Source: Roseibium sediminicola
GTDB lineage: Bacteria > Pseudomonadota > Alphaproteobacteria > Rhizobiales > Stappiaceae
Reading direction: 5' to 3'
Assembly (NCBI RefSeq): GCF_023156505.1
Contig: NZ_JALNMJ010000006.1
Coordinates: 124,001-188,000 of the forward strand
Length of the DNA stretch: 64,000 bases
The notes below the pieces were generated by a model that worked only from the letters and a program-made list of their open reading frames with translations, did no database searches and had not been told where the DNA came from. Below are positions 19,463 to 36,766 of the stretch, piece after piece. The translations under genes were made by a program, and so were the position numbers. The stretch's first letter is position 1; each line of letters begins with the position of its first letter.

Positions 19463-20650
19463 TTACTCGGCTGCGTCGGCGCGGGCGCCGAAATGGCGGG
19501 CAAGGGCGTCGGCGATGTCGGTCTTTTCCCAGCCGAAGCCGCCATCGGCATCCGGGGCCCGGCCGAAATGGCCATAGGCGGCGGTGCGGGCGTAGATCGG
19601 TTTGGTCAGGCCGAGCTGCTCGCGGATGCCGCGTGGTGTCAGGCGGACCATCTCGCGCAAGGCCTTTGCGAGCGCGACTTCATCCACCTTGCCGGTGCCG
19701 TGGGTGTCGACATAGACCGCGACCGGCTCCGGCACGCCGATGGCGTAAGCGAGCTGGATCAGGCATTTGTCGGCGAGACCGGCTGCGACCACGTTCTTGG
19801 CAAGATAGCGCGACACATAGGCAGCCGATCGGTCGACCTTGGTGGGATCCTTGCCGGAGAAGGCGCCGCCGCCATGAGGCGCTGCGCCGCCATAGGTGTC
19901 GACGATGATCTTTCGACCGGTCAGGCCGGCATCGCCGTCCGGTCCGCCAATGACGAAGCGGCCGGTCGGGTTGATGTAGATCCGGTTTTCCGGGATGGAC
20001 CAGCCGACAGGCAGGGCATGCAGAATGAAGGGCAGCACCGCTTCGCGGACCTCTTCCTGGCTGACATTTTCGCCGTGCTGGGTGGAAACGACAACCGCGT
20101 CGATGCCGGTTGGTTTGCCGTTTTCGTAGCGGAGCGTGACCTGGCTCTTGGAATCCGGCTGCAGCCTGGGTTCCTTGCCGGACTTGCGGGCCTCGGCCAT
20201 TGTGCGCAGGATCTTGTGCGACATCAGGATCGGCGCCGGCATCAGCTCCTCGGTCTCGTTGCAGGCGTAGCCGAACATGATGCCCTGGTCGCCGGCGCCT
20301 TCCTCACCCTTGTCGCCCTCATCGACGCCCATGGCAATATCGGCGGACTGCTGGTGCAGGCGGTTGACCACTTCCATGGTGTTCCAGTGGAAGCCATCCT
20401 GCTCATAGCCGATGTCCTTGACCGCTTCGCGCACAAGATCCTCGACGCTGTCGAGGACTTTCTTGGGGCCGCGCACCTCACCGGCGACGGTGACGTGATT
20501 GGTCGTGGTCAGGGTTTCGCAGGCCACGCGAGCATTGGGTTCTTCGGCCAGAAAGGCATCCAGGATGGTGTCGGAAATCCGGTCGCAGACCTTGTCCGGA
20601 TGGCCCTCGGAAACGGATTCACTGGTGAACAGCCAGGATTTCTGCGTCAT
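19463..20650 (-). CDS. metK: S-adenosylmethionine synthetase
   Basis: A 395-residue enzyme making S-adenosylmethionine from methionine and ATP. Visible motifs are [17 protein letters not shown] near the N-terminus, [12 protein letters not shown] in the middle, and [19 protein letters not shown] in the C-terminal half. ATG 20650 has AAGGAG upstream; the 21 codons before it are leader. It lies 100 bases downstream of the glycine methyltransferase gene on the same strand with no terminator between. The two probably form an operon in which metK supplies the three SAM molecules used per betaine made (inference). Confidence 0.97.
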
Positions 20651-20701
20651 TGCGCACTCCTTGTTGTTGGGAAATAGCCAGGTTGTTGGAAGATGTCGGA
20701 T

Positions 20702-20733
20702 GCTGTCCGCCACAGTTCAAGGTGGCGGACAGC
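20702..20733 (-). promoter_or_regulatory. Perfect 12-bp hairpin between the betaine methyltransferase gene and metK
   Basis: GCTGTCCGCCAC - 8-base loop - GTGGCGGACAGC. It has no T-run, so it is not a standard terminator. It could stabilise the 3' end of the upstream transcript, be an RNase processing site, or be part of a control element for metK. It does not match the SAM riboswitch consensus sequences as I know them. Confidence 0.6.
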
Positions 20734-20750
20734 GTCCATTTTCATAAATG

Positions 20751-22445
20751 TCATTCAGGCTTGCGGTACATCTGGATGCCCCAGGCGAGCTGGCCGGCAT
20801 CGGCGCTGTCGACCCAGTTCTTGAGACCCGCGGTCATCTTGTCGAGATATTCGGCCGAAGCACCTTCACCGCGCAGCTTGTCGTAATTGGCCAGAAGCTC
20901 CTCGCGCACCCGGAAATAGTGGTTTCGGAGCTGGTTGGTCATGTCGCGCTGTTCGCTGATCTCGAATCCGAGCGCCTGTGCCGCTTCGCGGTAGAAGCGG
21001 AAAGACCCCAGGCTGTTGAGCTGCAGACGGTCATAGACGGGCTGAAGCGCTTCCGGGTCGGCATCGTCGGCCTGCATCGGATCGGTGAAGATGAAGTAGC
21101 CGCCCGGCTTCAGCACCCTGTGGACTTCCTTCAGGACCTGGTCACGCTGGTCGGAGTGCAGGATCGCGTCCTGGCTCCAGACGATCTCGAAGCTTTCCGG
21201 CTTTTCCGGAATGTCCTCAAAGACACCGTGGACGACCCTGATCTTGTCCTTGAAGCCCTGCTGGACATTGCGGTGCCGGTTGGTGTCGTTCTGGACATCG
21301 GAAATGTTCAGGCAGACGGCCTCGCAACCGGTCTCTTTGACCACCTTGCGCATGGCGCCGCCATAGCCGGAGCCGATGTCGAGCACCTTGGCGTTCTCAT
21401 CGAGGTTCGGCAGCATCTTGACCATCTCGTCGATGGTCAGATCGGAGGCTTCGCGGATGTTGCTGGTGGTGTCATAGAGACCGATATGCAGGTCCTGCCC
21501 GCCCCAGACGACACTGTAAAACGTGTCGGCGTCGTCGCTGTCGTAATAGGTTTCGGCGACTTCGCGGATGTCCTGCTTGCCGTCCTCGAGCTGCGCACCG
21601 CCCCAGCGCACCAGGTGCAGGCTGGATTTTTCGGCAATGTGGATGAAGAAGTCAGGGTCGGTCTCGGCGAAGGTTTCCTGGAAATCGCCATAGGTGCGTA
21701 CGCGCTCGAAGCCGGCCTCGGAGAGCAGCTGTCGCATGTAATTCTTGCGCACGGGGCACATGTTGAGCGTAAATTCGGCGCCGTCCGGGAAGCTGTATTT
21801 GAACCGGGCGAGACCCTCGTCCAGATAGTCCGGCTCGGCCGTCACCTTCTTGCCGGCATAGTAATACTTGTGCTTGTTGGAATAGTCCTTGTTGTCGAGC
21901 ATCGCATCGTAATTGCGCTGGTCGATGATCAGGATGCCGTCATGCTTCAGGGCGGCATAGAATTCGGCCAGTGCCCGGCGGCGGTCCTTTTCGTCATGCA
22001 GGTGCGTGAAGGAATTGCCGAGACAGATGATGGCGTCGTATTTGCCCTGGATGTCCCGGTTGAGCCAGCGCCAGTCGGCCTGTACGGTCTTCAGGATCAT
22101 GCCGCGTTTCTGGCCGTTCTCGAAGGCCTTTGCCAGCATGGCGGCAGAGCCGTCCGCGGAGGTGACGTTGAAACCGGCCTTGGTCAGGCGGACGGAATGG
22201 AAGCCGGTGCCTGTGGCGACATCGAGGACGGTTTCCTTGCCGCGGGCGCGCAGCACGTCCATGAAGAATTGGCCCTCGCTGTCGGCCCGGGCATCCCAGT
22301 CGATCAGCTCGTCCCATTTTTCAACGAAGGACATGATGTACTCGCCGCGATAAAGGTCGGTTTCTCGGTCCGCGATCGGATCCTGACCATACGCCTGCTC
22401 GTCCAGTTGCAACTCGGCATTTGTCGCCAACTGTTGTGCCTGCAT
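20751..22445 (-). CDS. Fused glycine/sarcosine and sarcosine/dimethylglycine N-methyltransferase (betaine synthesis)
   Basis: A 564-residue fusion of two SAM-dependent methyltransferases. The N-terminal half (about 1-275) is a glycine/sarcosine N-methyltransferase with SAM motif TVLDVATGTGFHSVRL and LYRGEYIMSFVEKWD. The C-terminal half (about 285-564) is a sarcosine/dimethylglycine N-methyltransferase with VLDIGSGYGGAMRKV and DIGLYDT-like context. Together they methylate glycine three times to glycine betaine, a compatible solute. Single-chain fusions are known in some halophilic and marine bacteria; Halorhodospira has separate enzymes. The gene leads a likely operon with metK. The start has GGAGAA six bases upstream. 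Confidence 0.93.
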   Translation of the reverse strand: MQAQQLATNAELQLDEQAYGQDPIADRETDLYRGEYIMSFVEKWDELIDWDARADSEGQFFMDVLRARGKETVLDVATGTGFHSVRLTKAGFNVTSADGSAAMLAKAFENGQKRGMILKTVQADWRWLNRDIQGKYDAIICLGNSFTHLHDEKDRRRALAEFYAALKHDGILIIDQRNYDAMLDNKDYSNKHKYYYAGKKVTAEPDYLDEGLARFKYSFPDGAEFTLNMCPVRKNYMRQLLSEAGFERVRTYGDFQETFAETDPDFFIHIAEKSSLHLVRWGGAQLEDGKQDIREVAETYYDSDDADTFYSVVWGGQDLHIGLYDTTSNIREASDLTIDEMVKMLPNLDENAKVLDIGSGYGGAMRKVVKETGCEAVCLNISDVQNDTNRHRNVQQGFKDKIRVVHGVFEDIPEKPESFEIVWSQDAILHSDQRDQVLKEVHRVLKPGGYFIFTDPMQADDADPEALQPVYDRLQLNSLGSFRFYREAAQALGFEISEQRDMTNQLRNHYFRVREELLANYDKLRGEGASAEYLDKMTAGLKNWVDSADAGQLAWGIQMYRKPE

Positions 22446-25535: not shown

Positions 25536-27428
25536 CTACCTCACCGGCATGCCCTTGGCGCGGAAGTGGCGTTTCTGGGCGGCGATGCGGAACTGGGCGT
25601 TGGCGGCGCCATAGCCCTTGTAGCCGCCGCGGCGCTCGACAATCTCGAAGAAAAAGCCCTCGCCATAGGTCGGGCTGTAGAGCTGGAAATACTCGCCGGT
25701 CTCGTCCCGGTCATAGAGGATGCCAGCAGATTTCAGCGCATTCAGGAAATCCTCCTCCAGGCCGAAACGGGCATCGAGATCGTCGTAGTAATTCGGCGAG
25801 ATGGCGAGTGGCTTGAAGCCGTTGGCCTTGAGGGCTTTCACGGTCTCAAAGATGTCCGCCGTTTCGAAGGCGATGTGCTGCACGCCGGAGCCGAAGCCTT
25901 CCTGGATGAAATGCCCGGCCAGCGTCTTGCGGTTTTCCGCACCGTTCAAGGTGATGCGCAGGGTGCCGTCCGCGTTCTCGATCGCCTGGCTGCGCACCAG
26001 TCCGGCCGGATCGATGACATCGACCATCGCGGTCTTGTCGGTGTCGAAGATCGACCGGTAGAACAGCAGCCAGGTCAGCATCTCGTCGTAGTTCATGGTC
26101 TCGGCAATGTGGTCGATGCGGGTGAGGCCGGCTGCTCTGGTTGCCGTATCGTCGTTCAGGTAAGTGAATTCGGTTTCCCAGACCCGCGAGAGGTCTTTGC
26201 TGCCGTCGATGAAATGCAGCACGCTGCCGCCGAGGGCACGGATTGCGGGGATCTTTAGTTCACCCGGGCCGACCGGCTGTTCGAAGGTCTTGGCGCCGAG
26301 GCTTTCCGCGCGGGCAACGGTTGCCGCCGCATCGGCTACCTTCAGGCCGATGTCGCAGACATTGGTGCCGTGGGAGAGGTAGGACGCGTGCGCAAAGCCG
26401 CGCGGATCTGTGTTGATGACGATGTTGATGCCGCCCTGGCGCCAGAGTTCGACCTCCTTGGAAACGTGCCTGGCGGAGCGCTTGAAGCCCAGGGTCGCGA
26501 GCATGGCCGTCAGGTCCCTGGCTTCTCTGCGGTCGGCGGCGAACTCGACAAATTCGATGCCGCCGACAGGAACCCTGTCGGGCATGTCAGGCACCGGAAT
26601 GCGGATGCCGGGCTCCGTCCGCCGCACCTGGTCCATCAGGTAGAGCAGCGAGCGGTAGCCGTCGACGGCAATCGACTTAGGCGAGCCGCCGCGGAACTGG
26701 TCGTTGAAGATTTCCAGTGACAAGACACCGTCATAGCCGGTGGCGGCCACCGCGCGCATGAAGCCTGTGACGTCAAGATCGCCTTCACCGGGCATGTTGC
26801 GGAAATGGCGGCTCCAGTAGAGCAGGTCCATGTTGAAGGCCGGTGCGTCGGCCAGCTGCACGAAGAAGATCTTGTCGCCGGGAATGGCGCGGATCGTGTC
26901 CGGATCGGTCTTGCGCGACAGGGTATGGAAGGAATCTAGGATCAGGCCGACATGGGCATGGTCGGCGCGCCTGACGATTTCCCAGGCATCGCGATGGTCG
27001 TTGACGAAACGTCCCCAGGCGAGTGCCTCGTAGCCGATGCGGATGTCAAAGGTGGCCGCAAGGTCGCCGAGCTCATTGAGGTCCGCCGCGGCCCGGTCGA
27101 TGCCGCCAAGCGCGATCGGCGAAACACTGGAGCAGATCAGGAGGAGATCCGCCCCCATCTCCCGCATCAGTTCGAACTTGCGCTTCGCCCGCTCGAAGGT
27201 CCGGCTGCGCTGAGGTTCGGGCATGCCTTCGAAATCGCGGAAGGGCTGGAACAGGCAAATCTCCAGGCCGTGGTCCCGGACCAGCTGGCCGACCTCCTTT
27301 GGGCTGCGGTCGAAGGCGAGGAAATCGTTTTCGAAGATTTCCACGCCGTCGAAACCGGCTGCGGCAATGGCGCCGAGCTTTTCGGCAAGATCTCCGGCGA
27401 TGGAAACGGTGGCGATGGCGGTTTTCAT
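25536..27428 (-). CDS. quiC: 3-Dehydroshikimate dehydratase fused to a hydroxyphenylpyruvate dioxygenase-like (VOC) domain
   Basis: A 630-residue two-domain protein. The N-terminal half (about 1-270) is a xylose-isomerase-like TIM barrel with AAAGFDGVEIFENDFLAF and VGLILDSFHTLSRK. It converts 3-dehydroshikimate to protocatechuate. The C-terminal half (about 290-620) has two VOC units like 4-hydroxyphenylpyruvate dioxygenase, with putative metal ligands in LTRIDHIAETM, GVQHIAFETAD and FFFEIVERR. This fusion is the known QuiC1-type architecture. It is the last enzyme of the quinate/shikimate island and lies 48 bases after the AroE gene. Only the N-terminal activity is predicted with confidence. 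Confidence 0.93.
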   Translation of the reverse strand: MKTAIATVSIAGDLAEKLGAIAAAGFDGVEIFENDFLAFDRSPKEVGQLVRDHGLEICLFQPFRDFEGMPEPQRSRTFERAKRKFELMREMGADLLLICSSVSPIALGGIDRAAADLNELGDLAATFDIRIGYEALAWGRFVNDHRDAWEIVRRADHAHVGLILDSFHTLSRKTDPDTIRAIPGDKIFFVQLADAPAFNMDLLYWSRHFRNMPGEGDLDVTGFMRAVAATGYDGVLSLEIFNDQFRGGSPKSIAVDGYRSLLYLMDQVRRTEPGIRIPVPDMPDRVPVGGIEFVEFAADRREARDLTAMLATLGFKRSARHVSKEVELWRQGGINIVINTDPRGFAHASYLSHGTNVCDIGLKVADAAATVARAESLGAKTFEQPVGPGELKIPAIRALGGSVLHFIDGSKDLSRVWETEFTYLNDDTATRAAGLTRIDHIAETMNYDEMLTWLLFYRSIFDTDKTAMVDVIDPAGLVRSQAIENADGTLRITLNGAENRKTLAGHFIQEGFGSGVQHIAFETADIFETVKALKANGFKPLAISPNYYDDLDARFGLEEDFLNALKSAGILYDRDETGEYFQLYSPTYGEGFFFEIVERRGGYKGYGAANAQFRIAAQKRHFRAKGMPVR

Positions 27429-27476
27429 TGCCTCGATCCTTCGTTCAAAAGGGGGCGGTATTCGGCCGTCGGGCTA

Positions 27477-28346
27477 TCAAAGTCTGGCGAAACAGGCCGA
27501 CATGCGGTTGGGGTCGGCCGCGAGGCCGGTGAAGAGCTCAAAGGCGCGGACCGCCTGGTAAACCGCCATGCCCGCGCCACCCATGACCCGGCAGCCCGCA
27601 GCCTTTGCCGCCTTTACGAGCTCGGTTTCCAGCGGAAAATAGATGACATCCGCGACCCACATGGACGGGCGCAACAGCTCACGCGGGAACGGCAGGCCGG
27701 GCAGCTTTTCCATGCCGACCGGGGTGGCATTGACCAGACCGTCAATGTCCCGGGACGTTGCCGCGATGTCGGTGCTGATGGAGGCCGAGGCAGCGCCTTT
27801 CTGACGGCAGACGGCGTCAACCAGGGTTTCTGCCTTCCTGGGATCCTTGTCGTAAACAGCGAGATGCCCGACGCCGTTCTCCATCAGCGCGAAGGCAACG
27901 GCGACACCGGCGCCGCCCGCCCCGACAAGAAGCGCCCGGTCCAGGGCGGCGCCGGACATGGTCTGCCGGAAACTTTCGGCAAAGCCCCAAAGGTCGGTGT
28001 TGTGCCCGATGCGTTTGCCGTCCCGGAACACCACCGTATTGACGGCGCCGACCGCTTGAGCGTTTTCAGACAAGCCGTCGAGATGCTCCATCACCTCCAG
28101 CTTGAAGGGATAGGTGACGTTCAATCCGGAAAAGCCGCAGTTTTCCGCCGATTTGACCATGTCGCCGATGGAGATCTCCCGTCGGCCGATGCGGTCGGTG
28201 TCGAAGAGCCGGTAGACGTATCGGATGCCGTTGGCGGCGCCTTCCGCCTCGTGCATCGCGGGGGTCCTCGACAAACCGATCCCGCTGCCGACAAGGCCTG
28301 CGAGGATGGTTTTCGGCGTGCCGAGCGGTTGTAGGTCTGCGATCAT
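27477..28346 (-). CDS. Shikimate/quinate dehydrogenase, AroE family
   Basis: A 289-residue NAD(P)-dependent dehydrogenase. The substrate site GLVGSGIGLSRTPAMHEAEG and the catalytic Lys/Asp in GLNVTYPFKLEVMEHL and GHNTDLWGFAESF are present. The nucleotide site is ALLVGAGGAGVAVAFAL. The GSGIGLSRTPAMHE form is typical of catabolic AroE-like proteins, not biosynthetic AroE, so it may oxidise quinate or shikimate. ATG 28346 overlaps the TRAP dctM stop by four bases (ATGA), proving translational coupling. A much longer in-frame ORF reaching 29735 is a shadow of dctM. Confidence 0.9.
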   Translation of the reverse strand: MIADLQPLGTPKTILAGLVGSGIGLSRTPAMHEAEGAANGIRYVYRLFDTDRIGRREISIGDMVKSAENCGFSGLNVTYPFKLEVMEHLDGLSENAQAVGAVNTVVFRDGKRIGHNTDLWGFAESFRQTMSGAALDRALLVGAGGAGVAVAFALMENGVGHLAVYDKDPRKAETLVDAVCRQKGAASASISTDIAATSRDIDGLVNATPVGMEKLPGLPFPRELLRPSMWVADVIYFPLETELVKAAKAAGCRVMGGAGMAVYQAVRAFELFTGLAADPNRMSACFARL

Positions 28347-29638
28347 CCCGGATACCCGAAGAGGCGAGGCAGCCACAGAATGAGACCGGGAAATAGGATC
28401 AGGACGAGCAGCGCCGCGACAAGGACAGCCAGGAACGCCCAGATTTCGGAAATGATCTCCTTGAGCGGGATCCTGCTGACCGCGTTGATGACGAAGAGCA
28501 GGATGCCATAGGGCGGCGTGATCAGGCCGATCATGCAATTGACCACGGCCACGACACCGAAATGGATCAGGTCGATGCCAAGCTCGCGGCAGGTCGGCAG
28601 AAACAGCGGGATGATCACGAGAATGATCGTGGTCGCGTCCAGAACACAGCCGAGCGCAAGCAGCATCAGGTTCACGCCGAGCAGGAACACGATCGGCGAC
28701 ACGTCGAGACCGACAAGCGTTCCCGCCAGAAGGTTCGGAATGTTTTCCGAAGCGACGATATAGTTGAGGATCAGCGCGCCGCCGATCACGAGCCCGACGG
28801 CGGCCGAGGACCGGGCGCTTTCCACGAGGATCCGGTAAAGCGCGCCCACGCTGAGCGCGCGGTAAAACAGACCGGCCAGCAGCAGGGCGTAGGCGGCTGC
28901 AACGGCCGCGGCTTCCGTCGGTGTCGTGACGCCGCCGTAGATCCCGTAAAGCAGGATGGCGGGCATCAGGAGGGCTGGAAACGCGTTGACGGTGTTTTGC
29001 GGCAACTCGCTCAAGGGCACCGGGTCCTCGTGGGCGAAGCCGCGCCGGGTGGAGATGAAGGTGTTCATGGCCATGATCACCACGCCCATCAGAACGCCCG
29101 GCACAATGCCGCCGAGGAACAGGTAACCGATCGACTGATTGGAAACGAGCGCGTAGAGGACCATCGGAATGGACGGCGGAATGATCGGTCCGATCGTCGC
29201 TGAAGCCGCAGTGATGGCGGCTGCATAGCCTCGTGTGTAGTGACCGCTCTTGACCATCATGTCGATGATGATCTTGCCGATGCCGGCGGCGTCCGCGACC
29301 GCTGACCCGGACATGCCCGAGAAGATCAGCGACGCGACCACGTTGACATGGCCAAGGCCGCCCCGGAACCGGCCGACCGTCGCGACGCAGAACTGCAGCA
29401 GCCGTTCCGAGATGGTGCCCGCGTTCATGATATTCGCGGCAACGATGAAAAGCGGCACCGCGAGCAGCACGAAGCTTTCGTAAAGTCCGGCGAGGATCTG
29501 TTCTCCGGCCAGCGCCAGGTCCTGTCCGGCAACGGCCAGATACACCAGCGAACCGGCCAGAATGGCATAGGCAATGGGGGTGCCGATGGCCGCCAGCAGA
29601 AAGAGTGTCAGAAGGCAAAGCGCCAGCTGCAGGCTCAT
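28343..29638 (-). CDS. TRAP transporter large permease subunit, DctM family
   Basis: A 431-residue membrane protein with about 12 segments, the channel-forming unit of a sodium-driven TRAP transporter. Typical stretches are VASLIFSGMSGSAVADAAGI, AAITAASATIGPIIPPSIPM and CMIGLITPPYGILLFVINAV. It overlaps the dctQ stop at one end and the aroE start at the other by four bases each, so the permease and dehydrogenase are made together. Context predicts quinate, shikimate or related cyclitol acids as cargo. Confidence 0.95.
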   Translation of the reverse strand: MSLQLALCLLTLFLLAAIGTPIAYAILAGSLVYLAVAGQDLALAGEQILAGLYESFVLLAVPLFIVAANIMNAGTISERLLQFCVATVGRFRGGLGHVNVVASLIFSGMSGSAVADAAGIGKIIIDMMVKSGHYTRGYAAAITAASATIGPIIPPSIPMVLYALVSNQSIGYLFLGGIVPGVLMGVVIMAMNTFISTRRGFAHEDPVPLSELPQNTVNAFPALLMPAILLYGIYGGVTTPTEAAAVAAAYALLLAGLFYRALSVGALYRILVESARSSAAVGLVIGGALILNYIVASENIPNLLAGTLVGLDVSPIVFLLGVNLMLLALGCVLDATTIILVIIPLFLPTCRELGIDLIHFGVVAVVNCMIGLITPPYGILLFVINAVSRIPLKEIISEIWAFLAVLVAALLVLILFPGLILWLPRLFGYPG

Positions 29639-30141
29639 CCTTCTTCCCCCACATGAATTTCATGAGCGTCGGCGGGGGCGCCATGCCGCAACACATGGAA
29701 GAAGGACCAGGCATACCGGAGCACGACCACGGCAAGAAAGATCGCGTATATAGAATAGATCGTTCGCATGGGGATTTTCAGCGTGGCGCTCTTCTTGATC
29801 TTCAGGAAATCGATCCAGTCCCAGGTCGGCAGAAACGACCAGGCAAGTGCCGATGCAATGGCCAGCGCCGACACCATCGCCATGACCTTCCGGGGCCCCT
29901 TGGGCACCGCCAGATAGAGAATGTCAAAGCTGACATGGTCACGCTCGCGGACGATGAAGGCATTGCCGAAAAAAACGATCCAGACCCAGAGCACGAGGCA
30001 GAGTTCGAGTGTCCAGCCAAAGGGCTGCGCCATCACGTAGCGCGAAAAGATCTGCAGCAGGAAAGTCAGGAACATGGCCCCCAGCATGAGGGCGGCTATG
30101 GCTTCGCCGCATTTCATTCCCCACTTGGATAACAGGGACAT
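29635..30141 (-). CDS. TRAP transporter small permease subunit, DctQ family
   Basis: A 168-residue protein with four membrane helices, e.g. AIAALMLGAMFLTFLLQIFS and ELCLVLWVWIVFFGNAFIVR, followed by the family motif RERDHVSFDIL. It is the scaffold of the large subunit. ATG 30141 lies after GGAGGAG. The TTG six codons earlier overlaps that ribosome site and is rejected. The stop overlaps the dctM start. Confidence 0.93.
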   Translation of the reverse strand: MSLLSKWGMKCGEAIAALMLGAMFLTFLLQIFSRYVMAQPFGWTLELCLVLWVWIVFFGNAFIVRERDHVSFDILYLAVPKGPRKVMAMVSALAIASALAWSFLPTWDWIDFLKIKKSATLKIPMRTIYSIYAIFLAVVVLRYAWSFFHVLRHGAPADAHEIHVGEEG

Positions 30142-30219
30142 GCCTCTCCTCCCGACCAACGGTTGTCTGTTGGCGCCAGTTTGCTGTCTGGGTGAGTAAA
30201 CTCAAGGCGAATGCGCCCT

Positions 30220-30259
30220 GAAAAATTCCGGCCGGTAGACGGGCTCGCACCGGCCGGAA
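30220..30259 (-). terminator. Terminator-like hairpin inside the TRAP operon (between dctP and dctQ)
   Basis: On the minus strand TTCCGGCCGGT - 12 bases - ACCGGCCGGAA is followed by TTTTTC, an 11-bp perfect stem with a T-run. Such hairpins can lower transcription of the permease genes relative to the binding protein. Confidence 0.8.
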
Positions 30260-30334
30260 GTCACGCAGCTGTTCCGCTCGATTGATCAAGCGAAGGGGTG
30301 GGAACCCGTGTTGCCGCGTGACGGCTTTGCAGGA

Positions 30335-31351
30335 TCAGTTGCCGAGGGCGTTGATCTTTTCCAGGAGCCCGTCCGGCCAGTTGGCCGCATAGTCGCTCTC
30401 CAGATACATGCCCTGAACGCGGTCGCGGAACGCGGCGACATCCGGCTCGTAGATTTCCATGCCCTGTTCCTGAAGGAAGGACACGAGATCCTCTTCCTTC
30501 TTCAGCTGGGCCTGCCGCCCCGCTTCCGCAGCGTCGTCCGCGGCTTTCTGGACGGCAGCCTGCTGATCCGGTGTGAGGCTGTCCCAGACCTTCTTGGACA
30601 GGGCGATGTAGTTGAGGTCGACCAGATGAGACGTCAGGATGATCTGGTTCGTGACTTCATAGAACTTGGCATCGACCACGGTCGGCAGCGGGTTGTCCTG
30701 CCCGTCGACGGCACCTGTCTGCAACGCGGTATAGACTTCGGTGAATGCCATGGGCGTCGGATTGGCGCCAAGCGCCTTGCCGAGAAACTGCCACGCATCC
30801 GTGCCGGGCATGCGCAGATTCACACCGGCAAGGTCTTCAGGTGTCTTGACCGTCAGCTCGTCCTTGCTCTGGCGAAGGTTCACCTGACGGCGGCCGAGAT
30901 ACATTACGGACAGCAATTTGACGCCGAGCTCGTCTTCCACCTTCTGCTTGAAGGCGTCCATCAGCTCATTGTTGAAAACGGCCACCTGGTGGGCGGCATC
31001 CTGATGAACGTAACCAGCGGTGAAAATCGAAAATTCCGGAAAGAAGACGGCCAGTTCCTGCGCGGACGTGATCGACATTTCCAGGTTGTCGCGCGCGATC
31101 GCCTCGAGTTCGGTGCCCTGCTTGAACAGCGTGGCGTTCCAATGCGGTTCGAACTCGGCGAAGTCCGCGACGGCCGGGCCGAAGACCTCGGTCATGGCAA
31201 CCGCCCGCTGGTCGGTGGCCGAAGCCGGTGCGGACAGACGCAATTTGATCTTGTCGGCGGCGCTCGCGGCGGTTCCGCCGAGCGTTGACGCAGAAACTGC
31301 AAGGGCCGCTGCTGTCGCAACAAAGGTGCGGCGGTTCAGATATTTCCTCAT
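30335..31351 (-). CDS. TRAP transporter solute-binding protein, DctP family
   Basis: A 338-residue periplasmic binding protein. The N-terminus MRKYLNRRTFVATAAALAVS carries a twin-arginine-like signal ending near ASAADK. The mature protein has the family core GRRQVNLRQSKDELTVKTPE, GVNLRMPGTDAWQFLGKALG, with the conserved arginine that binds the substrate carboxylate in NLRMPG, and GAVDGQDNPLPTV. ATG 31351 follows GGAGGAACC. It is the first gene of the operon after the regulator and is followed by a terminator-like hairpin. The cargo is inferred to be a cyclitol carboxylate. Confidence 0.94.
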   Translation of the reverse strand: MRKYLNRRTFVATAAALAVSASTLGGTAASAADKIKLRLSAPASATDQRAVAMTEVFGPAVADFAEFEPHWNATLFKQGTELEAIARDNLEMSITSAQELAVFFPEFSIFTAGYVHQDAAHQVAVFNNELMDAFKQKVEDELGVKLLSVMYLGRRQVNLRQSKDELTVKTPEDLAGVNLRMPGTDAWQFLGKALGANPTPMAFTEVYTALQTGAVDGQDNPLPTVVDAKFYEVTNQIILTSHLVDLNYIALSKKVWDSLTPDQQAAVQKAADDAAEAGRQAQLKKEEDLVSFLQEQGMEIYEPDVAAFRDRVQGMYLESDYAANWPDGLLEKINALGN

Positions 31352-31480
31352 GTGGTTCCTCCCATATGCGGCGGGCCGGCGAAATCGCAGACGACCACTC
31401 CGCTGCAATCAATTACACAGGAGGAGGTCCGTTTCAACATACATTTTAAGTTTTGTAGGCTATTTTGAATTTTGATCTTG

Positions 31481-32155
31481 TTATGCCTGCTTTTTCTCCC
31501 GGTTGGCGATGCTGTGTTCAACGCCGCCAAGGATATGGGTTTCAAGCACTTTCCCTGCCGTTTCCGCGTCATGCGCAAGGGCGGCATCGTGCAGCAATTT
31601 GTGCTCCTTTGCCGCTTCCTCACCGCGAAAGGTCAGTGTAAGCATCTGATAACGAAGATATTTGTCGAAAACGGCTCCATGCGTCTCAAGCAACGCCCTG
31701 GAGCCGCATCCGGAAATCAGGGCGCGGTGAAACTGCCAGTCGGCATTCTTCCAATTCTCGCGGAGACTGGTTTCACCGGCCAGCATCTTTTTCTCAAGCA
31801 CGTGCAGCTTGTGATAGGCCGCGACCACGCCGGCTTCCCAGTCGAGATCGCCCATTTCGAAGGACCGCTTGAGCGCATGGCTTTCAAGCAGGATCCTGAG
31901 CTCGGCGATCTCCCTCAGGTCTTCGTCGGAAACCGGGGCGACCTCAAAACCCTTTTGGCCTTCCGCCACCACAAAACCGTCTGATGTCAATCGGTTAAGG
32001 ATTTCCCGCAGGGTGGTGACGCTGACATTGTAGCGCTTGCGCAAGGGTTCCAGCCGCAGCCGCTCGCTTGGTTTCAGCTGACCAAAAACGATGTCGTTTC
32101 GGATGTTCCGATAGGCGCTGTCACCGACCGTATCACTCTCTGCTGCCTCGATCAT
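31481..32155 (-). CDS. GntR-family regulator, FCD subfamily
   Basis: A 224-residue regulator. The winged helix-turn-helix (about 8-75) includes AYRNIRNDIVFGQLKPSERL and RYNVSVTTLREILNRLTSDG. The FCD ligand domain (about 80-215) includes ELRILLESHALKRSFEMGD and the late HKLLHDAALAHDAETAGKVL. FCD regulators usually sense carboxylic acids and often bind metal through Asp/His residues. It sits between the TRAP genes and the divergent aroQ, with a perfect palindrome in the gap. It probably represses both arms of the quinate/shikimate island (inference). Confidence 0.92.
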   Translation of the reverse strand: MIEAAESDTVGDSAYRNIRNDIVFGQLKPSERLRLEPLRKRYNVSVTTLREILNRLTSDGFVVAEGQKGFEVAPVSDEDLREIAELRILLESHALKRSFEMGDLDWEAGVVAAYHKLHVLEKKMLAGETSLRENWKNADWQFHRALISGCGSRALLETHGAVFDKYLRYQMLTLTFRGEEAAKEHKLLHDAALAHDAETAGKVLETHILGGVEHSIANREKKQA

Positions 32156-32190
32156 TCCGCTCCAACCTGATCTCGCTCTTGACGGTTTTC

Positions 32191-32209
32191 AAAAATATAG
32201 GATATTTTT
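32191..32209. promoter_or_regulatory. GntR operator candidate
   Basis: AAAAATAT-AGG-ATATTTTT, a perfect 8-base inverted repeat. The core AATATAGGA recurs as a direct repeat at 32213-32221. It lies in the divergent region between the GntR and aroQ genes. Confidence 0.7.
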
Positions 32210-32304
32210 AAGAATATAGGAAATTCAAAAAAACACGCCCTATCGACCAATACCTATCCGCAAAGCCGGCGCAATGTAACCTTCCAGTTCAAGGATCCAG
32301 AGTT

Positions 32305-32772
32305 TTGACTTCGACAGTGTTTGTCCTGAACGGACCCAACCTCAACCTGCTGGGCAAGCGCCAGCCGGACATCTATGGCCATGAGACCTTGAGCGATGTG
32401 GAGACTGCCTGCCGGGAGCAATGTGCCCGCCAGGGGATTGAAATCCGGTTCCATCAATCGAATACCGAGGGCCAGATCATAGACTGGATCCATGAGGCAC
32501 GGGATACCGGTGCGGCCATCGTCATCAATCCGGGTGCCTACACGCATACCTCCGTCGCGATCCTGGATGCCTTGAACGCCTTTGACGGTCCCGTCTTCGA
32601 AGTCCACATATCCAACGTGCACAGGCGTGAGAGCTTCCGGCACCATTCCTATGTCTCGCTGCGGGCGGACGGCGTCATCGCGGGGTTCGGCACGCAAGGC
32701 TATCTCCTGGCGCTTCAGCGGGTTGCACACGTGCTTGGCGTCTCGTCGCCGGTAGCGGGAACGGCGGTATGA
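32305..32772 (+). CDS. aroQ: Type II 3-dehydroquinate dehydratase
   Basis: A 155-residue class II dehydroquinase (flavodoxin-like fold, dodecamer). The motifs are [20 protein letters not shown] with the catalytic region LGKRQP...YG (Arg and Tyr), [31 protein letters not shown] and [20 protein letters not shown] (catalytic His). In this island it would act in the catabolic direction, dehydroquinate to dehydroshikimate. The start is a TTG at 32305, with AAGGA about nine bases upstream. The stop overlaps the next start as ATGA. Confidence 0.95.
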
Positions 32773-33842
32773 CGGCACCCGTGTCCCTTGCGGTTGCCGG
32801 GGCCGGCCTCATCGGCAAACGCCACATCCAGGCGATCGATGCCGTCGGTGACGTGTGCCTGTCGGCCATCGTCGATCCGGCCGCAGGGGCTCAAGATCTG
32901 GCCCATGACCTGGGTGTCGCCTGGTATCCCGATCTGGAAGCCTTGTTCGACAGGGAAACGCCCGGTGGCGTCATCCTCGCCACGCCCAACCAGCTTCATG
33001 TTGCAAACGCGCTTGCCTGCATCGAAGCGGGGGTTCCGGCACTCGTTGAAAAGCCGCTTGCCGCCGACCTGGCCGGAGCGCAGCGGCTGGCAGACGCCTC
33101 GGACGCGTCCGGTGTGCCGTTGCTGGTCGGTCATCATCGCCGCCACAATCCGCTCATTGCCGCGGCAAAGGCAAAACTGGACGAAGGCGCACTTGGAACC
33201 ATCGTCGCGGTTCATGGCATGTTCTGGCTGATGAAACCCGACGACTATTTTGATGTCGCGTGGCGGCGGCAACCTGGAGCCGGTCCGATTCTGGTCAATC
33301 TCATTCATGACATCGACCTGTTGCGCCATCTCGTGGGAGAGGTGGTCTCTGTCCAGGCGCAGGCCTCCAGCATCGTGCGCGGCAACCCGGTCGAGGAAAG
33401 CTGCGCCATCCTGCTTCGGTTCGAAAACGGTGCCCTTGGAACGGTCAGCGTGACGGACACAGCCGTCGCTCCCTGGAGCTGGGAACTGGCGGCCGCTGAA
33501 AACCCCGCCTACCCGGCGACGGGCGAGTCCTGCTACTTCATCGGCGGCACACACGGCTCGCTGGAACTGCCGAATATGAAACTCTGGTCCAATCCGGCCA
33601 AACGCAGCTGGTGGGAACCGATCAGCGCCTGCCGCTTTCCGCAGCCGAGCGGCGACCCGTTGATCCGCCAGATCAGCCACTTCGCCGGTGTTATCCGGGG
33701 AGACGAGGTCCCGCTCGTTCCGGCACGCGAAGGCCTGCGCTCCATGCAGGTGATCGACGCCATCCAGCGCTCGGCCCACTCGGGTGAGAGTGTGCAGCTG
33801 TCCGGTGAACAGCACCCCGACGTGACGCGACGGTCTGCGTAG
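32769..33842 (+). CDS. Gfo/Idh/MocA-family oxidoreductase
   Basis: A 357-residue NAD(P)-dependent oxidoreductase. The nucleotide-binding start is [20 protein letters not shown]. The signature [15 protein letters not shown] carries the conserved EKP, and the active-site region [17 protein letters not shown] has the His-Asp pair typical of the family. It is translationally coupled to aroQ by a four-base overlap, so it should serve the same pathway. Members oxidise sugars, inositols and other cyclitols, so quinate or a related cyclitol acid is a plausible substrate. This is inferred from context alone. Confidence 0.9.
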
Positions 33843-34956: not shown

Positions 34957-35322
34957 TGTCTGTCTCTTTTCGTTTTACAAGGTCGTTTGATCGTGGCGCC
35001 TCGCTTTCTTCGGCGATGGCGCGGGCAAAATGAGTTGCGAATTGAGGTCAGATTGGGGCTGCCGGATGACGCATATTTAATCTGACGCCAAGATGCCGGT
35101 AAGGTCTTTTAAGTAGTAGGAATTACTTTTGATTTTGCGCTTGAGGTGCTCGATTTTCGGTATCAATTCGATGTCACGCGAACGTGTCGCGGCGACGGTC
35201 TGGACAGGGTTTCGGTGTCGTGGGTGCATCGTTGCCGACGGCAGAACCGACCATGATCAAACATTGACAGCCTTTAAAAAACTATATAACTAGAAATATA
35301 GTTATATCGTGTGAGGCACGGA
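34957..35322. other. Divergent promoter region between the AcfC-like and ArsR genes
   Basis: 366 bases without a credible gene; AT-rich from about 35080 to 35140 and 35260 to 35310. The second part contains the ArsR operator at 35284-35307. Nothing else was identified. Confidence 0.45.
35284..35307. promoter_or_regulatory. Operator of the second ArsR protein
   Basis: ATATAACTA-GAAATA-TAGTTATAT, perfect 9-base arms, 15 bases before the arsR start. Confidence 0.8.
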
Positions 35323-35667
35323 ATGGATCTGGAAATTGCGGCGCAAGGTTTTGCAGCGCTTGGCTCGGAGGCCCGGCTGCAGGTGGTGCTGACCCTGGTG
35401 AAGGCGGGGCAGGGCGGTCTGACGGTGGGAGACATCCAGTCGCGCACCGGCATGGCCGCCTCAACCCTGGCGCATCATCTGAAATTTCTCGCCTCCGCAG
35501 GCCTTGTCATCCAGGAAAAGGACGGCCGTTCGGTGTTCAACCGGGCCGCCTTCGATCATCTGGAGAGCCTCGCCGGCTACATCCTGAAAGAATGCTGCGC
35601 CGACGAGGCCGTTTGTGCGCCAACGTCAACGAAGACCCTTTCCGAGAAAGAGCTTTCCCATGACTGA
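35323..35667 (+). CDS. ArsR/SmtB-family repressor (second copy)
   Basis: A 114-residue winged-helix repressor. The DNA-binding part is LTVGDIQSRTGMAASTLAHH with LKFLASAGLVIQEKDGRSVF as wing. The tail KECCADEAVCAP has a CC pair plus one Cys, as expected for a thiophilic ligand such as trivalent arsenic. A perfect inverted repeat lies directly upstream, indicating autorepression. ATG 35323 is preferred to a GTG four codons earlier. The stop overlaps the permease start by eight bases, so the two are coupled. Confidence 0.92.
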   Translation: MDLEIAAQGFAALGSEARLQVVLTLVKAGQGGLTVGDIQSRTGMAASTLAHHLKFLASAGLVIQEKDGRSVFNRAAFDHLESLAGYILKECCADEAVCAPTSTKTLSEKELSHD

Positions 35668-36766
35668 CACCGTGAACGATCTCAATCCATCGAGCGGTGG
35701 CAGCTGCTGCGCGCCGAAAACTGCCTGCTGTACAGCGCCAAAGCCGAAATGGTCCTGGCAAAACTTCCCGGGCAAGGACTATCTGTTCTCGACCTGGGCG
35801 ATTGTGGTGGGCGGACCGCTCCTGGTGCTGCTGCTCGATCCGGTGCAGTTCGTCGCTTTCGTCACCTTTGCCGTCAAGGCCTTCGGCGGCACGCTGCCCT
35901 ATATCGCCTTTGCCGTTGCGCTGATTGCCTGGCTGAAGGCGTCCGGCGCCGAGGCCTATGTGGGCAAGGCCTTCGAAGGACGTGAGACCCAGGCGATCGT
36001 GCTGGCGGCTCTGTTCGGCGGACTGGCGCCGTTCTGCTCCTGCGAGGTCATTCCGTTCATCGCCGGGCTGCTGGCGGTCGGGGCGCCGCTTTCGGCGATC
36101 ATGGCCTTCTGGCTGTCCTCGCCGTTGATCGATCCACCGACGCTTCTGATCACCGCCGGCGCGCTCGGTTGGCCCTTTGCCATCGGCAAGGCGGTGTTCG
36201 CCGTCGCGCTCGGCCTCTTCGGCGGCTTTCTGGTTTCGGTGCTGCTTCGCGGCGGTGCCTTTGCCAATCCGGTGAAAATGGGTGCGGCGACGGGGGGCTG
36301 CGGCTGCGGGGCGTCGCCCAAGACCGGCCGGCCGGTGTGGCGCTTCTGGCACGAGGACCAGCGCAAGCAGAAATTCGGCGCGGAGCTGAAGGCCAACGCG
36401 TTTTTTTTGATCAAGTGGCTGGCGCTTGCCTATGTGCTGGAAGCCGCGCTGGTGACCTATGTCCCCGCCAACCTGATCGCCACCGTTGTCGGCGGTGATG
36501 GTCTTGGCTCCATCGTGATTTCCGCCCTGGTCGGCATGCCTGCCTATCTGAACAGCTATGTGGCGCCGCCGCTGCTCGCCGGACTGATGGACCAGGGCAT
36601 GAGCGCGGGCGCGGCCATGGCCTTCATGATTGCCGGTGCCGTCAGCTCCATCCCGGCCATGGCCGCGGTCTGGTCACTGGTCAAGCCGCTGGTCTTTGCC
36701 ACCTATCTTGGCCTTGGGTTCGCGGGCGCCGTGCTGTCGGGCCTGATCTTCCAGCTGTTCGTGTGA
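35660..36766 (+). CDS. Permease of the ArsP/DUF318 family
   Basis: A 368-residue membrane protein with about eight helices. The hallmark GLAPFCSCEVIPFIAGLLAV carries the CSCE motif of permeases that include ArsP, an exporter of trivalent organoarsenicals. Later SALVGMPAYLNSYVAPPLLA is also typical. A cytoplasmic N-terminus SGGSCCAPKTACC and a loop GGCGCGA add cysteines that could bind a thiophilic substrate. It is controlled by the coupled arsR and followed six bases later by a transglutaminase gene. Export of an arsenical or other soft-metal compound is the best guess. Confidence 0.88.
   Translation: MTDTVNDLNPSSGGSCCAPKTACCTAPKPKWSWQNFPGKDYLFSTWAIVVGGPLLVLLLDPVQFVAFVTFAVKAFGGTLPYIAFAVALIAWLKASGAEAYVGKAFEGRETQAIVLAALFGGLAPFCSCEVIPFIAGLLAVGAPLSAIMAFWLSSPLIDPPTLLITAGALGWPFAIGKAVFAVALGLFGGFLVSVLLRGGAFANPVKMGAATGGCGCGASPKTGRPVWRFWHEDQRKQKFGAELKANAFFLIKWLALAYVLEAALVTYVPANLIATVVGGDGLGSIVISALVGMPAYLNSYVAPPLLAGLMDQGMSAGAAMAFMIAGAVSSIPAMAAVWSLVKPLVFATYLGLGFAGAVLSGLIFQLFV

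Follow-up and report, generated by a model that had tools for sequence, protein, structure and literature searches.

A TRAP-linked gene island of Roseibium sediminicola predicted to convert quinate and shikimate to protocatechuate

In a 64,000-nucleotide stretch of the Roseibium sediminicola genome (hereafter, the window), we found that the eight genes at positions 25536-33842 most likely form a catabolic island for quinate and shikimate that is fed by a tripartite ATP-independent periplasmic (TRAP) transporter and ends in protocatechuate. The predicted conversion of both substrates to protocatechuate is well supported by the enzymes encoded, and gene context makes quinate or shikimate the likely cargo of the transporter. 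Both compounds are abundant plant ring acids, and known bacterial importers for them belong mostly to the major facilitator superfamily (MFS). The chemistry is known; what the island adds, and what is worth testing, is the transporter pairing, a Gfo/Idh/MocA partner enzyme and evidence on the 4-hydroxyphenylpyruvate dioxygenase (HPPD)-like half of its dehydratase. Every gene named in the original prediction for this DNA is an open frame where that prediction had placed it, and the island contains the following features:

25536-27428, minus strand: QuiC, two-domain 3-dehydroshikimate dehydratase (DSD); PF01261, PF14696 and PF00903 above cut-off
27477-28346, minus strand: AroE-like, NAD-type quinate/shikimate dehydrogenase; PF08501, PRK12549
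28343-29638, minus strand: TRAP large permease DctM; PF06808, E = 5.4e-106; ATGA overlap with the AroE-like gene
29635-30159, minus strand: TRAP small permease DctQ; PF04290, E = 9.9e-20; ATGA overlap with dctM
30160-30334, minus strand: predicted dctP-dctQ intergenic RNA hairpins, from folding energy against shuffles
30335-31351, minus strand: TRAP solute-binding protein DctP with a twin-arginine-like signal (NRRTF); PF03480, E = 2e-57
31452-31464, no strand assigned: weak operator-like site upstream of dctP, a 9/13 match to the gntR-aroQ repeat
31481-32155, minus strand: GntR/FCD regulator; PF00392 and PF07729 above cut-off
32194-32225, no strand assigned: two direct repeats of AATATAGGAWATT between gntR and aroQ, a possible GntR operator
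32305-32772, plus strand: AroQ, type II 3-dehydroquinate dehydratase; TIGR01088, 191.7 bits against a cut-off of 169.85
32769-33842, plus strand: Gfo/Idh/MocA dehydrogenase; PF01408, PF02894 and PF22725; ATGA overlap with aroQ

The genes form two arms, with dctP, dctQ, dctM, the aroE-like gene and quiC on the minus strand, aroQ and gfo on the plus strand, and the minus-strand gntR between them. The arms had been described as divergent and translationally coupled. They do diverge from the gntR-aroQ gap, but coupling is only partial: the three 4-bp ATGA overlaps (DctM/AroE, DctQ/DctM and AroQ/Gfo) are accompanied by gaps of 48 bp between AroE and QuiC and 175 bp between DctP and DctQ.

QuiC combines an N-terminal AP_endonuc_2 TIM barrel with a C-terminal HPPD-like domain, the layout of the two-domain DSD (QuiC1/QsuB) group, and matches structure 5hmq with E = 1.3e-185. 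Its DSD active site is complete (10/10 residues, according to the list for QuiC1/QsuB in the available text of PMC7442255). The domain architecture and all ten residues are shared with Pseudomonas QuiC1 (5hmq; 58% identity in the N-domain) and QsuB. QuiC also carries the HPPD-like residues His440, His518 and Glu595, a His-His-Glu triad whose meaning is taken from HPPD. The AroE-like protein is a member of the broader subfamily PRK12549 (393 bits, cut-off 235), and its best match in the PDB is the quinate/shikimate dehydrogenase 3jyo (E = 6.7e-68), which we take to be the Corynebacterium glutamicum enzyme. Both have an 'SRT' motif and an Asp ending the second Rossmann strand, versus 'SRS' and 'NRT' in the genome's other AroE; Asp versus 'NRT' at this place is a usual sign of NAD versus NADP use.

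Searching the host genome (6.35 Mb, 62 contigs), we found two AroE matches, one of them in the island, two type II dehydroquinases (the island copy and one on contig C1) and no match for a type I dehydroquinase. The QuiC query returned itself and one protein with a 31% match to the HPPD-like half. PcaD, PcaC, PcaH and PcaG scored above curated cut-offs and are encoded in a single operon (pcaDCHG, at locus L007) on a contig other than the island's. Because the genome holds this operon and further aroE and aroQ copies elsewhere, the island enzymes look catabolic. The pathway to protocatechuate is thus well supported by the full set of DSD residues, the NAD-type AroE features, the extra gene copies and the pca operon. 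The description of the island as 'self-contained' was overstated since ring cleavage is encoded on another contig. As a separate observation, L025 (6018-6974) and further Hoeflea loci encode, close to their TRAP, Gfo and QuiC genes, a divergent AroE-like protein in which the usual substrate motifs are missing.

In the mechanism that we propose, DctP, probably exported by the twin-arginine translocation pathway, would bind a periplasmic ring hydroxy-acid and hand it to DctQM for import driven by a cation gradient. Either the AroE-like NAD enzyme or the Gfo/Idh protein would oxidize quinate to 3-dehydroquinate, AroQ would dehydrate the product to 3-dehydroshikimate, where shikimate would enter once oxidized, and the QuiC N-domain would dehydrate and aromatize it to protocatechuate, destined for the beta-ketoadipate route, whose pcaDCHG genes lie elsewhere. 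Both arms would be under the control of the GntR/FCD protein, bound in the gntR-aroQ gap until a pathway metabolite releases it. The sequence itself supports the enzyme families, catalytic residues, extra gene copies and pca sink; the cargo, the division of labor between the dehydrogenases, the operator and inducer, and any HPPD-like activity are inferred. Unlike the island, with its TRAP transporter, GntR/FCD regulator and added Gfo/Idh enzyme, the qsuABCD system of C. glutamicum relies on MFS uptake and LysR control. It resembles the island in having a two-domain DSD (QsuB; available text of PMC7442255), a dehydroquinase and a quinate/shikimate dehydrogenase that lead to protocatechuate.

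Transporters of related types accompany QuiC across the host's family. Among 87 genomes of this family, 40 had a QuiC match at E <= 1e-60, and for each of the 39 loci other than the window's we examined at most 20 kb (14.7, 15.4 and 16.2 kb in three cases). The DSD residues were kept in 32 of these 39 loci and lost in seven. Adding the window gave 33 intact-QuiC loci, 30 of which had a TRAP (n = 18) or a tripartite tricarboxylate transporter (TTT; n = 12) within 10 kb. By homology, we counted 12 TTT, nine TRAP-B, six TRAP-A (the window's subfamily) and two TRAP-C loci, the DctP of TRAP-B being 26-31% and that of TRAP-C 48-50% identical to the window's, and four loci had none. Pfam identified another TRAP at one of these (L143), and at L142, L150 and L155 no TRAP or TTT component was found among the five neighbors scanned at each, although L142 has a TerC-like membrane protein. 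Pfam checks covered TctA/TctB/TctC on L092 and L138 and TRAP-B on L124; the remaining loci were assigned by homology to those proteins and the window's. A TRAP or TTT, both secondary transporters with a binding protein, near 30/33 intact-QuiC loci of one family would change the annotation of these genes, and several relatives of the window DctP are now named as sialate binding. At L092 (4332-10296) and the TTT loci among L130-L152, QuiC stands beside TctABC and not a TRAP; for quinate or shikimate, uptake by a TTT would likewise be unusual. L150 and L155 combine an intact-site QuiC, single aroE and aroQ matches per genome and no transporter among the scanned neighbors, and protocatechuate is possibly anabolic there.

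The Gfo/Idh protein, left without a role in the original prediction, has about an even chance of being a second, non-AroE ring-acid dehydrogenase. It has PF01408, a C-terminal domain and the EKP lysine of the Gfo/Idh/MocA family, and the active-site EKP, Asn and His are invariant in 76/76 aligned rows (at least 40% identity; window and duplicates included). At 48% identity or more, Gfo was found in 22/87 family genomes, a count that excludes ten weaker matches (39-41%); in 20 of the 22 the same locus also holds QuiC (intact or not), AroQ or TRAP-A, which is not so in G100 (one in-frame stop) and G069. A second ring-acid dehydrogenase is suggested because in five TctCBA-X-QuiC operons Gfo fills the slot of AroE (Tct-Gfo-QuiC), compared with seven loci ordered Tct-AroE-QuiC; a role as quinate/shikimate dehydrogenase is read from gene position only, and the five loci are perhaps one event since all belong to one genus. 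Across the 33 intact-QuiC loci, 19 have AroE only, seven Gfo only, four both and three neither. We give slightly less than an even chance to the alternative that Gfo acts on another cyclitol or quinate stereoisomer and that the AroE-like enzyme alone oxidizes quinate and shikimate, as the C. glutamicum quinate/shikimate dehydrogenase does. This would fit G075, G076 and G061, where Gfo is found at loci with a dead QuiC and the genome has only one aroE and one aroQ match. It would also fit the five Tct-Gfo-QuiC genomes, all of which retain a second AroE elsewhere, with a second AroQ within ~6 kb of it; in the one of the five that was examined (L164), this pair adjoins TRAP-C. The exchange of Gfo for AroE in the same slot speaks against it, as do L144 and L145 (TRAP-A), where Gfo, AroQ and QuiC are found but no AroE lies within 10 kb of QuiC. 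A missing AroE was rejected as evidence that establishes what Gfo does, for a second AroE is encoded elsewhere in the genomes of L049, L077, L056 and L137-L141.

The transporter itself is a DctPQM-type TRAP, with PF03480, PF04290 and PF06808 above cut-off in consecutive genes. The window DctP is of the same subfamily as Roseobacter denitrificans RD1_0742 (4pf6; 230/308 residues identical), and its nearest named relatives are from Roseibium. Its predicted model is of moderate quality (mean pLDDT 67.7) and was used for structure matching only. Both arginines of the twin-arginine pair are invariant in 18 aligned sequences (window included), and only the first is invariant in 99 rows. From 108 loci with the window's TRAP subfamily, dropping 11 duplicates and adding the window left 98 distinct loci, a set that is biased in that its 80 source loci are the best 80 of 399 and some contigs end early. 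These comprised 37 loci with a dead-DSD QuiC (ALT), 24 with a dihydrodipicolinate synthase (DHDPS)-family gene and no quinate-type marker (DH), 19 with an intact QuiC or AroQ (QUI; window included), 15 partial loci and three with none. A different GntR type was found in 22/24 DH loci, and L010, L054, L075, L173-L178 and L180-L185 are examples in which this TRAP subfamily occurs with DHDPS-family genes and another GntR. On the DctP tree, locus labels are clustered yet interleaved (12 changes for QUI and eight for DH, compared with shuffled means of 17.7 and 21.7; 0/500 shuffles as low). The idea that one TRAP equals one cargo was rejected given these swaps of context, and a search for specificity columns likewise failed: in the 99 rows, 96 DctP columns are invariant and none fully separates QUI from DH loci.

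The cargo class of this TRAP subfamily may be broader than quinate and shikimate, because some of its members belong to loci where a DHDPS-family gene stands in place of the quinate genes. Ulosonate pyranoses such as that of 3-deoxy-D-manno-oct-2-ulosonate (KDO) share a C(OH)(COOH)-CH2-CHOH-CHOH unit with quinate, which makes a common site for quinate and KDO conceivable, and we infer a single DctP site for acids with this unit. In the available literature, our searches returned no report of TRAP uptake of quinate or shikimate; the accessible portions of PMC5812351, PMC10054779 and PMC10382565 contain nothing on it, and in the main text of the TRAP review PMC5812351, KDO, 3-deoxy, quinate, shikimate, Roseobacter and 4PF6 do not appear. 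This agrees with the earlier remark that TRAP uptake of such cargo is little described, the nearest precedent being the Rhizobium protocatechuate TRAP (PMC3333776, in the part available).

Several observations weigh against a TRAP-fed quinate/shikimate island. QuiC, which is 42% identical to Pseudomonas QuiC1 (5hmq) in the C-domain, falls below the cut-off of the QuiC equivalog NF042435 (701.9 versus 1200 bits), which leaves it assigned to the wider two-domain group only, and the AroE-like protein falls below that of the quinate/shikimate dehydrogenase NF010631 (251 versus 515 bits). Of the 98 distinct loci with the window's TRAP subfamily, 24 have a DHDPS-family gene but lack quinate-type markers and 37 have a dead-DSD QuiC. 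The only close solved relative of DctP, 4pf6, whose ligand is probably KDO, groups on the tree with DHDPS-type loci (four rows, 3 DH and 1 partial; support 100/84) and not with the window's nearest kin. Few quinate loci carry the operator form that prevails in ALT loci, as detailed below. Finally, the six closest QuiC relatives (85-92% identity; L124-L129) adjoin a different TRAP, with a DctP only 28-29% identical to the window's. Elsewhere, L163 has Gfo-AroQ-GntR-DctPQM-AroE in identical order at 74-93% identity and lacks QuiC in its 20 kb; this locus, the closest to the island apart from QuiC, comes from the same genome as L124. Since the closest QuiCs adjoin another TRAP and the L163 island is without QuiC, QuiC seems to have joined the island separately from the other genes. 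Parts of the island core were also found in Hoeflea, Marinovum, Actibacterium and Defluviimonas, and because a large share of these genes reappears in other genomes the grouping is more than chance.

Could the TRAP instead import a 2-keto-3-deoxy ulosonate (a KDO-, 3-deoxy-arabino-heptulosonate (DAH)- or sialate-like pyranose), with the quinate enzymes supplied separately? We consider this unlikely. Several DctP homologues are named sialic acid TRAP SiaP at NCBI, and SiaP structures come next among the structural matches (25-30% identity, with the fold of SiaPQM in common). The pairing with a DHDPS-family gene in 24/98 loci, 22 of them with another GntR type, points the same way, as does 4pf6 if it is, as is probable, a KDO complex. 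Unlike SiaPQM, the window TRAP has a quinate context: no DHDPS gene lies in the island and no sialate catabolic genes were found in a scan limited to the eight genes of the island and nine genes flanking it, and AroE follows the window-type TRAP in the window, L163 and L169. DHDPS-family and quinate-type genes co-occur in 7/97 distinct loci, so the two cargo types may overlap, and the lack of a DctP column that splits the locus kinds, together with the shared ring-acid unit, would allow one site to serve KDO and quinate. It is very improbable that the TRAP imports the end product protocatechuate while the enzymes serve a separate quinate/shikimate supply. Rhizobium leguminosarum does take up protocatechuate by a TRAP in the same pathway area (pRL120499-500), with shikimate assigned to an MFS transporter (PMC3333776, available part), but in the window's genome the pca genes are on another contig, whereas AroE and AroQ adjoin the TRAP. 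That the island makes protocatechuate for biosynthesis (siderophore-like) is scarcely credible: some DSD enzymes are anabolic (AsbF) and L150 and L155 could be cases of this kind, but the uptake genes, the additional AroE and AroQ, the two-domain QuiC and the pca operon of the genome speak against it.

The quinate/shikimate island also bears on the HPPD-like half of two-domain DSDs, for which the ALT proteins form a sister QuiC clade. All thirteen residues (DSD and HPPD-like) were kept in 12/12 intact QuiC proteins (ten loci, 5hmq and the window) and 32/32 further family proteins. ALT residues were examined in 31 ALT loci, in seven ALT proteins from the family and, for one ALT protein, in its best 120 of 1044 homologues (chosen by similarity to that protein and overlapping with the loci). 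Of the metal-site acids of the dehydratase, E134 is replaced by a non-acid in 31/31, 7/7 and 120/120, respectively, and E239 is lost in all three sets (Asp there in 1/31 and 3/120). Asn or Ser takes the place of D165, and Phe, Leu or Tyr that of H168, while Q191 is kept in all. The HPPD-like triad persists among the best 120 homologues (H440 in 120/120; H518 and E595 in 119/120, one gap each). Constraint on the two domains is reversed, with mean pairwise identities for the N- and C-domains of 0.80 and 0.62 in intact proteins versus 0.59 and 0.74 in ALT proteins, a reversal that the biased choice of homologues hardly explains. ALT proteins form one group in FastTree trees of the N-domain, C-domain and full protein (support 0.87, 0.58 and 0.88). 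The 37 ALT loci contain AroQ in none, AroE in 19, Gfo in 36 and a citrate-synthase-like gene in 35; the product of the latter (L013, 6932-7759) has 275 amino acids and matches the C-terminal part of PF00285 only. QuiC-like fusions with the dehydratase acids gone and the triad intact were seen in L013, L015, L018, other ALT loci and P0241-P0360. Two of these proteins, P0252 and P0345, carry the database name 3-dehydroshikimate dehydratase, and ALT proteins thus show that some such names sit on proteins without the dehydratase acids.

The available text of PMC7442255 (2020) reports that the QsuB C-domain is inactive on protocatechuate, proposes a role in oligomerization and states the role of the HPPD-like half as open; the sister clade offers a direct handle on this function. 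Because the ALT pattern argues so, the HPPD-like half probably has a catalytic function of its own, on something other than protocatechuate; alternatively, it may be structural, with a conserved metal site. Tentatively, and with rather less than even confidence, we combine these points: Gfo would be a non-AroE dehydrogenase for ring acids of the quinate class, the HPPD-like half of QuiC would be a working Fe(II) (2-His-1-Glu) oxygenase whose substrate derives from the TRAP cargo, and the Rhodobacterales/Roseibium sister clade (dead dehydratase half, with the active site kept only in the HPPD-like half; same TRAP, Gfo and GntR; half-size citrate-synthase-like protein and further Gfo enzymes) would have an undescribed ring-acid pathway that bypasses protocatechuate.

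Two kinds of non-coding element may regulate the island. The 175-nt dctP-dctQ gap has a minimum free energy of -76.6 kcal/mol (z = -5.8; 0/200 shuffles equally stable), and its hairpins perhaps lower permease expression relative to the binding protein. The gntR-aroQ gap holds exact copies of AATATAGGAWATT at 32194-32206 and 32213-32225, 19 bp apart, which are a possible GntR operator; at up to two mismatches they are the only two in the 64-kb window (0.34 expected; two reached in 8/100 shuffles). The 9/13 match upstream of dctP gives no support on its own. A related form, ATATCNGATAT, was found at up to one mismatch upstream of dctP in 35/37 ALT loci (0.7 expected), 3/18 QUI, 3/17 other and 0/25 DHDPS loci, and upstream of gntR in 15/35 ALT, 2/17 QUI and 3/12 other loci, with none in DctM coding controls. 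A single operator conserved across all loci was rejected on this distribution, common in ALT, scarce in QUI and absent from the 25 DHDPS loci upstream of dctP.

The flanking genes encode an enoyl-CoA hydratase, a TetR regulator, an SBP_bac_11 protein and an ArsP permease. Because these look unrelated, the island appears to end where the original prediction had drawn its limits. Farther out, at 19463-22445 of the window, an S-adenosylmethionine synthetase adjoins a protein with two methyltransferase domains, a pair that resembles the arrangement for glycine betaine synthesis. At 35311-36766, a short regulator-like frame (ArsR-like by eye) precedes the ArsP-like permease.

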